From: Clostridiales bacterium
GTDB lineage: Bacteria > Bacillota > Clostridia > Oscillospirales > CAG-382
Assembly (NCBI GenBank): GCA_016286245.1
Contig: JAEESG010000007.1
Coordinates: 1-33,586 of the forward strand
Direction: 5' to 3'
DNA length: 33,586 nt
Part shown: positions 2,592 to 5,339 of the stretch, in pieces
How positions within the stretch are numbered: the stretch's first letter is position 1
How the letters are laid out: each line of letters opens with the position of its first letter
The notes under the pieces: generated by a model
The model's database searches: none
What the model was told of the DNA's origin: nothing
Seen by the model: the letters and a program-made list of their open reading frames with translations, nothing else
Position numbers and translations under genes: made by a program

Positions 2592-2620
2592 TTGACAACC
2601 TGACGCACGTATGATATAAT
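2592..2620 (+). promoter_or_regulatory. Consensus sigma-A promoter of the metNIQ operon
   Basis: TTGACA at 2592-2597 and TATAAT at 2615-2620 are separated by exactly 17 bases, a perfect housekeeping promoter. The predicted transcript starts near 2627, so the leader ORF at 2648 would have a 5' UTR of about 21 bases carrying a strong AGGAGG site. Such a strong promoter in front of a biosynthetic/uptake operon fits control by premature termination downstream. Confidence 0.92.
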
Positions 2621-2647
2621 GAACAAAAATCAGAAGGAGGAAGAATA

Positions 2648-2746
2648 ATGCAAAACGAATTCAGAATGATGCGAATGCTTTGCTCCCGGACAGATTCAAT
2701 GTGCGGGTTTATTCTTGCGCCTTCCGATAAACAGGTTCTTGCATAG
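2648..2746 (+). CDS. Met-rich leader peptide of the metNIQ attenuator (too short for the ORF track)
   Basis: A 32-codon ORF starts at ATG 2648, with AGGAGG at 2635-2640 (7-base spacing), and ends at TAG 2744-2746. Its peptide begins MQNEFRMMRMLCSRTDSMCG. Five of 32 codons are ATG (1, 7, 8, 10, 18), with two Cys codons (12, 19) and Arg codons AGA/CGA/CGG between the Met codons. It lies between a consensus promoter and an intrinsic terminator directly upstream of the methionine importer. This composition and position are those expected of a ribosome-stalling leader peptide that senses methionyl-tRNA supply. Codons 22-27 overlap the segment that can pair with the terminator's 5' arm. I infer attenuation; I know of no family name for this peptide. 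Confidence 0.8.
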   Translation: MQNEFRMMRMLCSRTDSMCGFILAPSDKQVLA

Positions 2747-2801
2747 AATAAAAGCATTGATGCCGTCCGGAAGTTGCAAGACTTCCGGTTTTGTTGTTTA
2801 T
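2713..2801 (+). promoter_or_regulatory. Terminator/antiterminator switch of the metNIQ leader
   Basis: The terminator has an 8-bp stem, CCGGAAGT (2767-2774) and ACTTCCGG (2781-2788), a 6-base loop and the T-rich tract TTTTGTTGTTTAT. A segment inside the leader ORF, TCTTGCGCCTTCCG (2713-2726), can pair with CGGAAGTTGCAAGA (2768-2781): 12 Watson-Crick pairs, one G-U and one mismatch. That pairing would consume nearly the entire 5' arm and the loop of the terminator, so the structures are mutually exclusive. A secondary complement, TCTTGCA (2737-2743) to TGCAAGA (2775-2781), and CCGGAC (2686-2691) to GTCCGG (2765-2770) also exist. A ribosome paused at Met codons 7-10 or 18 would leave 2713-2726 free and so favour readthrough. 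These pairings were found by hand, without energy calculations. Confidence 0.78.
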
Positions 2802-2823
2802 AGGCAAAAAGAAAGGTAAAAAA

Positions 2824-3810
2824 ATGATTGAACTTGAACATTTGAGTAAAGTGTTTGACGCCTCGTCAAAGAATATAAAAGCCGTAAACGACGTGTCCTT
2901 GAAAATTGAGAAGGGCGACGTGTACGGCATAATAGGACTTTCCGGCGCGGGAAAATCCACGCTTGTAAGATGTATAAACTTCCTCGAAAAGCCGACGGGC
3001 GGAAAAGTCGTCTTTGACGGAATCGACCTCGGAACGCTTCCGCATAAGGAACTGCTCAAACAAAGACAGAAAATGTCCATGATATTCCAGAATTTCAACC
3101 TCCTGTCGCAGAGAACGGCGCTTAAAAACGTGTGCTATCCGCTCGAAATAATAGGAACGCCCAAAAAGGAAGCGCAGGAAAAGGCGAAAAAACTGCTCGA
3201 TACCGTGGGACTTTCCGATAGGATTTATTCGTATCCCGCACAGCTTTCGGGCGGACAAAAGCAGAGAGTCGCAATAGCAAGAGCGCTTGCAACCGACCCT
3301 CAGGTGCTGCTGTGCGACGAGGCGACAAGCGCGCTCGACCCGAATACGACAAGAGCAATACTTTCGCTTCTCAAAAAGATAAATACCGAAATGGGCGTTA
3401 CGATAATCGTAATCACCCACGAAATGAAGGTTGTAGAACAGATATGCAATAAGGTCGCGGTAATAGAAAACGGAAAGATCGTGGAACAGGGCTACGTAAA
3501 GGAGATATTCATGTCGCCCTCGTCCGATATCGCAAAGGAACTGATTCTTCCGAAATACGAAAACGCAAATAAAACGCTTTCGCAAAGAATTTTGAGAATT
3601 GCGTTCGACGGACGCTCGTCCGTGGAGCCGCTTATTGCAAATCTGATCCTTGAATGCAGGGTCGTCGTGAATATCATGGGCGCCGACATGAAGGACATAA
3701 ACGGCGTTGCGTACGGACAGATGCTGCTGCAGCTTCCCGAGGACGATACCGCGGTAAACAGAATAAAAGCCTACCTTGATAAAAAAGACGTAAAGTACGA
3801 GGAGGTGTGA
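2824..3810 (+). CDS. metN: Methionine ABC transporter ATP-binding protein MetN
   Basis: This is the cytoplasmic ATPase of the D/L-methionine importer (328 residues, MIELEHLSKVF start). Walker A GLSGAGKS spans residues 38-45, the LSGGQKQR signature is at 141-148 and Walker B VLLCDEATS at about 161-169. The last ~75 residues (from SQRILRIAF) form the NIL/ACT-like domain that in MetN allows inhibition by intracellular methionine. The ORF track starts at a TTG at 2791, but that codon lies in the terminator's U-tract and lacks a ribosome binding site. ATG 2824, preceded by GAAAGG, is the better start. The stop overlaps the ribosome binding region of metI. Expression is probably set by the leader attenuator at 2648-2801. 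Confidence 0.96.
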   Translation: MIELEHLSKVFDASSKNIKAVNDVSLKIEKGDVYGIIGLSGAGKSTLVRCINFLEKPTGGKVVFDGIDLGTLPHKELLKQRQKMSMIFQNFNLLSQRTALKNVCYPLEIIGTPKKEAQEKAKKLLDTVGLSDRIYSYPAQLSGGQKQRVAIARALATDPQVLLCDEATSALDPNTTRAILSLLKKINTEMGVTIIVITHEMKVVEQICNKVAVIENGKIVEQGYVKEIFMSPSSDIAKELILPKYENANKTLSQRILRIAFDGRSSVEPLIANLILECRVVVNIMGADMKDINGVAYGQMLLQLPEDDTAVNRIKAYLDKKDVKYEEV

Positions 3811-3815
3811 AAATA

Positions 3816-4505
3816 ATGATAGAAGCATTGGATAATATACTCGGAACGGGTATGACCGTAATGTACTTGAATTCGATAGCAACAACCGTCAAAATTACGC
3901 TGACCAGCACGTTTCTTGCGTACCTTATCGGTTTTCCGCTCGGAATAATTCTTTACGGAACTGCATCGGAAAGCATTTTTCCGAATAAATACGTAAACGC
4001 GGTAACGGGATTTATCGTAAATATATTAAGATCCATACCGTTTGTAATACTGCTCGTAATGACACAGCCGCTCGCAAGCGTGATTATCGGCACAAGACTT
4101 GGAGATAACGCGTTTATTTTCCACCTCGTAATAGCGGCAGCCCCCTTTGTCGCAAGAATGATAGAGTCCTCGCTTAAAGAAGTCGACGCAGGCGTCATAG
4201 AAGCGGCGCAGTCGATGGGCTCGAACAATTTTCAGATAATAACGAAAGTGGTAATTCCCGAAGCAAAACCGTCCCTTATAATAGGAAGCGCGATTGCTAT
4301 AACGACAATTCTCGGATATACGCCCATGACCTATCTGATAGCGGGCGGAGGCCTCGGAGAAATGGCGGTAAGATACGGCCTTTATAAGTTCGACGAACAG
4401 ACCATGTATATTTCGTCGATACTTCTCATAATTCTCGTGCAGATACTCCAGGAAACGCTGAATCATATAGCAAAATCAAGCGATAAAAGAATACGAAACA
4501 AATAA
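3816..4505 (+). CDS. metI: Methionine ABC transporter permease MetI
   Basis: This is the inner-membrane permease subunit (229 residues) with about five transmembrane helices. The cytoplasmic coupling (EAA) loop is EVDAGVIEAAQSMGSNNFQI, the segment that contacts MetN. The family identity comes from this loop and from the metN-metI-metQ gene order. The ORF track opens at GTG 3807, overlapping the metN stop, but GAGGAGG at 3799-3805 would be only one base from it. ATG 3816 gives a spacing of about 10 bases and is preferred. A gap of only 27 bases with its own AGGAG site separates it from metQ. Confidence 0.95.
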   Translation: MIEALDNILGTGMTVMYLNSIATTVKITLTSTFLAYLIGFPLGIILYGTASESIFPNKYVNAVTGFIVNILRSIPFVILLVMTQPLASVIIGTRLGDNAFIFHLVIAAAPFVARMIESSLKEVDAGVIEAAQSMGSNNFQIITKVVIPEAKPSLIIGSAIAITTILGYTPMTYLIAGGGLGEMAVRYGLYKFDEQTMYISSILLIILVQILQETLNHIAKSSDKRIRNK

Positions 4506-4532: not shown

Positions 4533-5339
4533 ATGAAAAACACACTTAAAATTTTAGCTCTCGTAATTGCGGCACTTCTGGTGTTTGCAAGCTGCACAAA
4601 GCAGGCGGACGACAAAAAAATCGTGGTTGCCGCAAGCTCGACTCCCCACGCGGAAATCTTAGAGCAGTGCACAGACGCTCTCAAAGAACAAGGCTATACG
4701 CTTGAAATCAAGGTTATGGACGACTATATCATCCCTAATACCGCAACGGAAAGCGGCGACGTTGACGCAAACTATTTCCAGCATCAGCCGTACCTCGATG
4801 AATTCAACGCAAGCAACGGCACGCACCTCGTAACCGTCGCAAAGGTTCACTATGAACCCTACGCCGTTTACGCGGGCACGAGTAAGTCTCTTGACGAGAT
4901 TCCCGAAGGCGCAAAGATAGCGGTTCCCAATGACCCGTCAAACGAAGCGCGCGCGCTTCAGCTCCTTGCGGCAAAAGGATTTTTCAAGCTTGCCGACGGC
5001 GCAGGCCTTAAGGCAACGAAGCTTGATATAACCGAAAACCCGAATAACTACGAGATAGTTGAAATGGAAGCGGCTCTTTTACCGTCCGTTCTCGACGAAG
5101 TGAACGTTGCCGTTATAAACGGCAACTACGCAATCGGCGCGGGACTCAAGGTTTCAGAAGCGCTTGCGGTTGAAGACGCAGAGTCGGAAGCCGCTCAGAC
5201 GTTCGCAAATATCATCGTCGTAAAAGAGGGCAACGAGAATAACGAAAAGATTAAGGCGCTCGTAAACGCAGTTCAGAGCGAAAAGGTAAAGACGTTTATC
5301 GAAGAAAAATACGATAAAGCCGTAATAGCAATATTCTGA
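4533..5339 (+). CDS. metQ: Methionine-binding lipoprotein MetQ (NlpA family)
   Basis: This is the substrate-binding lipoprotein of the methionine importer (268 residues, the usual size). The N-terminus is a lipoprotein signal peptide: Lys near the start, a hydrophobic core (ILALVIAALLVF) and the lipobox FASC with the lipidated Cys at residue 21. The mature part opens KIVVAASSTPHAEILEQ and contains DVDANYFQHQPYLDEFN and IAVPNDPSNEARALQLL, hallmark blocks of the NlpA/MetQ family. It would be anchored outside the membrane and deliver methionine to MetNI. It is the last gene of the operon; a bidirectional terminator follows 13 bases after the stop. Confidence 0.95.
   Translation: MKNTLKILALVIAALLVFASCTKQADDKKIVVAASSTPHAEILEQCTDALKEQGYTLEIKVMDDYIIPNTATESGDVDANYFQHQPYLDEFNASNGTHLVTVAKVHYEPYAVYAGTSKSLDEIPEGAKIAVPNDPSNEARALQLLAAKGFFKLADGAGLKATKLDITENPNNYEIVEMEAALLPSVLDEVNVAVINGNYAIGAGLKVSEALAVEDAESEAAQTFANIIVVKEGNENNEKIKALVNAVQSEKVKTFIEEKYDKAVIAIF

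Follow-up and report, generated by a model that had tools for sequence, protein, structure and literature searches.

A probable methionine-sensing leader-peptide attenuator upstream of metNIQ in Clostridia

Known attenuators and the metNIQ leader

Methionine genes of Bacillota are held to be under the control of SAM riboswitches, Met T-boxes or repressors. The Met T-box (RF00230) and the SAM-I riboswitch (RF00162) likewise control methionine genes by premature termination of transcription, but they bind tRNA or SAM directly and do so without a leader ORF. In the trp, his and thr attenuators of Proteobacteria, an ORF with control codons, an intrinsic terminator and an overlapping antiterminator precede a gene for the sensed amino acid. 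Leader-peptide attenuators have been described in the T-box-dominated Bacillota for histidine (PMC2965389, PMC9413887) and leucine (PMC5794164), and a survey of such attenuators in Actinobacteria reports none for methionine (PMC1262725). Within the open-access literature (subscription papers and preprints lie outside it), metNIQ and a leader peptide co-occur in one relevant paper, which predicts the Met/Cys-containing leader peptide metL, MSTTSDRTPATEATTTPGARCMCRRMCAF, upstream of metNIQ in Streptomyces lividans TK24 (PMC8079986).

Here we analyse the metNIQ leader in a 33,586-nucleotide stretch of DNA from a Clostridiales bacterium of the gut (the window; source assembly 1.59 Mb in 146 contigs) and conclude that it is very probably a methionine-sensing, ribosome-mediated transcription attenuator. 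With Streptomyces metL, known here by its published peptide alone, it shares a short Met/Cys ORF in front of the same operon. However, metL belongs to Actinomycetota, its ORF is leaderless and has no typical Rho-independent terminator according to the authors, and the passages on metL give no antiterminator or comparative support (PMC8079986), whereas the Clostridia leaders have a Shine-Dalgarno (SD) sequence, a terminator and an antiterminator. The window leader differs from the proteobacterial attenuators in its phylum, in regulating an importer, in the predicted sensing of methionine and in an additional predicted helix that sequesters the SD. It is of the same kind as the His and Leu attenuators of Bacillota, with another amino acid and another leader. 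Ribosome-mediated attenuation is known as such; new is its methionine version at Clostridia metNIQ, for which the S. lividans prediction is the sole similar report that we found in the open-access literature. With occurrences before metNIQ in about a dozen Clostridia families, it would close a gap among the amino acids sensed in this way in Bacillota and show T-box and leader-peptide control replacing each other. Annotation pipelines would gain a class of short ORFs that they now miss, and methionine uptake in gut bacteria an additional regulator.

The leader lies on the forward strand, 3' of a TRAP-transporter gene that has its own terminator. A reading of this DNA from its sequence only had listed a promoter, an AGGAGG site, a 32-codon ORF, a terminator and metN in succession, and all details given for them proved correct. 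The sigma-70-type promoter (2592-2620) combines TTGACA (2592-2597) and TATAAT (2615-2620) with a 17-nt spacer, and the SD sequence AGGAGG (2635-2640) serves the leader ORF (2648-2746; MQNEFRMMRMLCSRTDSMCGFILAPSDKQVLA and a stop codon), in which ATG occupies codons 1, 7, 8, 10 and 18. Not one of 100 dinucleotide shuffles of the window's metN upstream region produced an SD-led ORF with four internal ATGs, and the folding z-score of the leader RNA is -2.9. The intrinsic terminator (2767-2799) is made up of an 8-bp stem (2767-2774:2781-2788) and a U-rich tract (2789-2799); for its hairpin, CCGGAAGU..ACUUCCGG at 2767-2788, we computed -13.2 kcal/mol. An SD-led, predicted-translated ORF with clustered Met codons in front of the first gene and an intrinsic terminator before metN are features that define an attenuator. 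The operon encodes MetN (2824-3810; importer ATPase with a C-terminal NIL domain; PF00005, PF09383; best NCBIfam match TIGR02314), the permease MetI (3819-4505; PF00528; best match NF008049) and the substrate-binding lipoprotein MetQ (4533-5339; PF03180; best match NF008285/TIGR00363). As all three score under the NCBI curated cut-offs, we infer the substrate of the importer.

Antiterminator hairpin and ribosome position

ORFs homologous to the window leader occur in L002, L003, L004, L041, L207-L210, L292 and L295. With the window these form 11 window-type leaders in three families: the window with its congeners L002-L004, family f20 (L041, L207-L210) and family f90 (L292, L295). In 11 of 11, the RNA from behind the RM codons to the 5' arm of the terminator folds into one long hairpin. 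In the window it extends over 2682-2774, with pairing of 2682-2691 to 2765-2774, 2696-2702 to 2754-2760 and 2708-2715 to 2745-2752, and has an energy of -33 kcal/mol; the other leaders go down to -50. The z-scores range from -3.5 (window) to -6.8, each hairpin being more stable than all of its 200 shuffles. Exchange of arms between divergent leaders weakens the pairing, the true assignment scoring 1/5040 in one set of representatives and 2/5040 in another, and the base helix displays two-sided, pairing-preserving changes at 5 of 12 pairs in a hand-registered count that omits one bulged G of L002 and L003 to hold register. Permutation and hand count take the place of a covariance model, because a MAFFT alignment of the 11 leaders displaced the 3' arm. 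RNAalifold detected no positive covariation signal in a nine-sequence alignment; its covariation term was slightly unfavourable (+0.63), an outcome due in part to the 5' arm, which is coding and hardly varies. As judged by permutation and z-scores, the hairpin 2682-2774 is thus a conserved antiterminator that excludes the terminator, and sequence and comparison together establish the elements of the leader, their mutual exclusion and the conservation of antiterminator and Met codons.

In the predicted ribosome-free fold of the window, the SD stretch (2632-2650) pairs with approximately 2708-2725. Comparison of own with swapped combinations of these arms in the congeners yielded 137/40320 permutations, which is suggestive rather than strong evidence that the helix is conserved as own-arm pairing.

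For a footprint scan, the RNA downstream of a ribosome was folded at each codon, with the front edge set 12 nt past the first A-site nucleotide; the results hold for equilibrium folding and this assumed footprint. The terminator probability in the window is 0.99 without a ribosome and about 0.9 at codons 1-5, the early-codon values varying with the folding settings. It falls to about 0.1 at Met7 and Met8, rises to 0.37 at Arg9 and 0.77 at Met10, and is about 1 beyond, apart from a partial dip to about 0.5 at Met18. The minimum at Met7/Met8 and the sharp rise after it were stable over four folding settings (30-42 C, dangle settings). Met7 and Met8 (2666-2671), the only codons with a value near 0.1 and with a corresponding Met in 24 f90 leaders, are therefore the predicted control codons: in the model, a ribosome stalled there frees the antiterminator and an advancing one blocks it. 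The sequence-only reading had expected stalls at codons 7-10 or 18 to antiterminate; this agrees with the scan for Met7 and Met8, while the scan mostly predicts termination for a ribosome stalled at Met10 and gives a weak dip at most at Met18.

In L292, a leader from outside the window's order, the scan reaches its minimum at the MM pair of that leader. Within the f90 genus, 24 leaders share the motif [M/Y/Q]-M-[R/Y/Q/C]-M; some upstream regions carry two such leaders in tandem. Over the 24 leaders, the mean terminator probability has its lowest value, 0.58, at the first conserved Met and is 0.86 one codon later. These leaders are interrelated and their motif was selected on the basis of Met codons; the switch position was computed from the RNA alone. 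L295 showed no switch in the footprint model. In contrast to the window, L002, L003 and L004 are predicted by this model to antiterminate even when no ribosome is present.

From these models we infer how ribosome stalling might couple methionine to transcription, and in which direction. RNA polymerase would start near 2627 and a ribosome would begin the leader ORF. With plentiful charged Met-tRNA, the ribosome would pass Met7/Met8 and cover 2682-2691, thereby blocking the base of the antiterminator, so that 2767-2774 would pair with 2781-2788 and transcription would end before metN. With scarce Met-tRNA, it would stall with Met7 or Met8 in the A site and its front edge just before 2682, covering the SD side of the SD:2708-2725 helix; the hairpin 2682-2774 could then form and take the 5' arm of the terminator, and metNIQ would be transcribed. 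In the absence of translation, the window leader is predicted to have its SD sequestered and its terminator formed.

Methionine codons upstream of metN

Relatives of metN were gathered from an order sample (394 genomes) and a class sample (391 genomes), and their upstream regions were strand-oriented. We defined Met-rich leaders as ORFs that follow an SD, are no longer than 45 codons and contain at least 3 internal Met codons. They are present in 25 of 97 metN upstream regions of the order and in 12 of 88 of the class; the reverse-strand controls have 1 of 97 and none, respectively. When ORFs were picked blindly, by SD strength and a terminator shortly 3' irrespective of their sequence, Met exceeded the composition-shuffled expectation 9.1-fold in the order (102 versus 11.2; 24 ORFs, some closely related) and 8.8-fold in the class (44 versus 5.0; 8 ORFs, some closely related). 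The next highest ratios were 1.8 for Lys and 1.7 for Cys in the order and 2.4 for Cys and 1.9 for Asn in the class; besides Met and Cys, no residue of the blind-picked ORFs exceeded 1.9.

The Met-rich leader peptides come from bacteria of about 13 families and are mostly unrelated in sequence between groups, as exemplified by MMMQCAMMCRMSAMMCGFFQF.. (L043), MRIRRQNSMMMGMMMCMATMRMMMR.. (L058), MNHSEAMQMNMDRMNDMCMMMCCMSECVKNR (L270) and, in genus g99, xxRMxMCMMCGFARFSA. Carriers at metN include Lacrimispora celerecrescens, whose leader has about ten Met codons, and a Christensenella sp. Across the 391-genome class sample, leaders of the type RMMRM..CCCG were found at metN and nowhere else. In a minority of relatives (L087, L088, L093), a T-box precedes metN instead. 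Searches with the RMLCSR pattern outside the window's genus and with ATGTGYATGATGTGYGG outside genus g99 returned unrelated matches and unrelated ORFs, respectively.

When ORF and terminator arm were tested for duplex formation, L005, L058, L061, L063, L066, L077, L084 and L124 gave no significant result. As this duplex test is null in many Met-rich leaders, we confine the antiterminator claim to the window, f90 and g99 types, the last on the basis of the duplex test and inspection. The comparative evidence supports the view that the window leader encodes a Met-codon peptide that attenuates metNIQ via ribosome position. A wider picture is more doubtful than not in our eyes but deserves mention: Met leader attenuation might be a major unrecognised control of metNIQ across Clostridia, repeatedly re-invented or swapped with T-boxes, sometimes in tandem, with a layer of SD sequestration, and with one branch that kept the RNA switch and drifted to cysteine or nascent-peptide sensing.

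Two different Met leader peptides lie in tandem upstream of metN in L361, L373, L374, L384 and L388 (for example MFFAAENNMMRMCKVRAEMYGLVAAR and MLYSFQTIGMMQMCTRGTLPAGGLP), most with their own terminators, as candidate double attenuators. L095 and L098 carry a Met/Cys-rich ORF, MKKNDCRHAMCMCTKNSKDRRCMRCCSTRM, with an indistinct terminator, about 315 nt upstream of metN. In Chryseobacterium sp. BGARF1 (L155, Bacteroidota), a Met/Cys-rich ORF, MKSKFTCNFMSKININYMMMYCCMPLCENFSG and a stop codon, followed by a hairpin and a T run, is located about 184 nt upstream of a MetN-like gene, and the same kind of leader may thus occur outside Bacillota.

Sensed signal and alternative readings

The sequence-only reading had named homologous leaders without Met codons as evidence against it. 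Such leaders exist: L004 and family f20 have kept the RNA switch, and FRCGRM stands in place of the Met cluster. On the other side, f90, which belongs to another order, and roughly twelve other families have Met clusters that are kept or have re-arisen. The support for Met specificity therefore applies to the window, L002, L003 and f90 and is weaker for L004 and f20. The last permissive sulphur codon of the FRCGRM branch is Cys15, and L210 is without even this residue; sensing of cysteine or of the nascent peptide is possible in this branch. In L209 and L210, a few hundred bases of GC-rich, repeat-like extra sequence separate the intact attenuator from metN.

That the leaders sense cysteine, or cysteine together with methionine, is the alternative that we take most seriously, at odds of well under one half. 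Cys codons are interspersed among the Met codons of many leaders (MCMMCG, CMC), FRCGRM retains Cys and not Met, Cys15 of L004, L041 and L207-L209 is near the last permissive footprint position, and the S. lividans leader is likewise a Met/Cys peptide (PMC8079986). Even though Cys is enriched 1.7- to 2.4-fold in the blind-picked ORFs, the enrichment of Met is about 9-fold. In addition, Cys12 and Cys19 of the window are at positions where stalls are predicted to terminate, and Cys codons have been lost in L210 and in L003, where both conserved ones are changed.

We regard it as improbable that ribosomes stall on a metabolite signal through the peptide sequence rather than through codon identity. 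Such nascent-peptide arrest would fit the Met-poor L004, L041 and L207-L210, which preserve the residues NFRCGRM through synonymous codon changes, and the RM that stands before the switch in window-type leaders. However, Met alone is shared among the otherwise divergent residues that precede the switch in f90 and other families, and the recurrence of Met-rich leaders with unrelated sequences is what codon sensing would predict.

Attenuation as first drawn, with 2713-2726 as the antiterminator arm and control mainly by Met18, is at least as improbable. The proposed pairing with 2768-2781 comprises exactly the 12 Watson-Crick pairs, one G-U and one mismatch that had been claimed, and the partial dip at Met18 would suit it. 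Its energy, however, decays from -15.9 kcal/mol in the window to -13.7 in L002, -9.5 in L003, -4.8 in L004 and -1.7 in L041, so that the pairing is strong in the window and L002 only and gone in L004 and L041. Moreover, L002 and L003 have no codon corresponding to Met18, and the hairpin 2682-2774 is both more stable and conserved. The core idea of Met leader-peptide attenuation of metNIQ has thus held, with a different antiterminator; the 2713-2726 arm appears secondary, conserved only in close congeners, and at most accounts for the weak second dip in termination.

A metabolite riboswitch or T-box outside Rfam, with a coincidental ORF, is very improbable, as it would leave the Met-codon enrichment unexplained and the conserved part of the RNA, which overlaps the ORF, displays nothing beyond the alternative hairpin pair. 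In the Rfam scan of the window no family reached threshold, covariance models for SAM riboswitches (RF00162) and T-boxes (RF00230) had no match in its metNIQ leader, where the sequence-only reading had seen neither element, and the related metN leaders scanned had no Rfam elements; we therefore rejected the riboswitch and T-box readings.

The same genome does use these RNAs at other loci, which is the one point in favour of a hidden riboswitch. Its SAM riboswitches include one at metK and none at metNIQ, and its T-boxes precede an O-acetylhomoserine sulfhydrylase-like gene, thrS, an asparagine-synthetase-like gene and two ABC binding-protein genes, as named from their translations. The SAM riboswitch at metK and the T-box at the O-acetylhomoserine sulfhydrylase-like gene (L327, L330) map to G000:C73:4303-4407 and G000:C90:5359-5603. 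Together with the metNIQ leader, this makes three RNA-based mechanisms that appear to act on methionine metabolism within a single cell.
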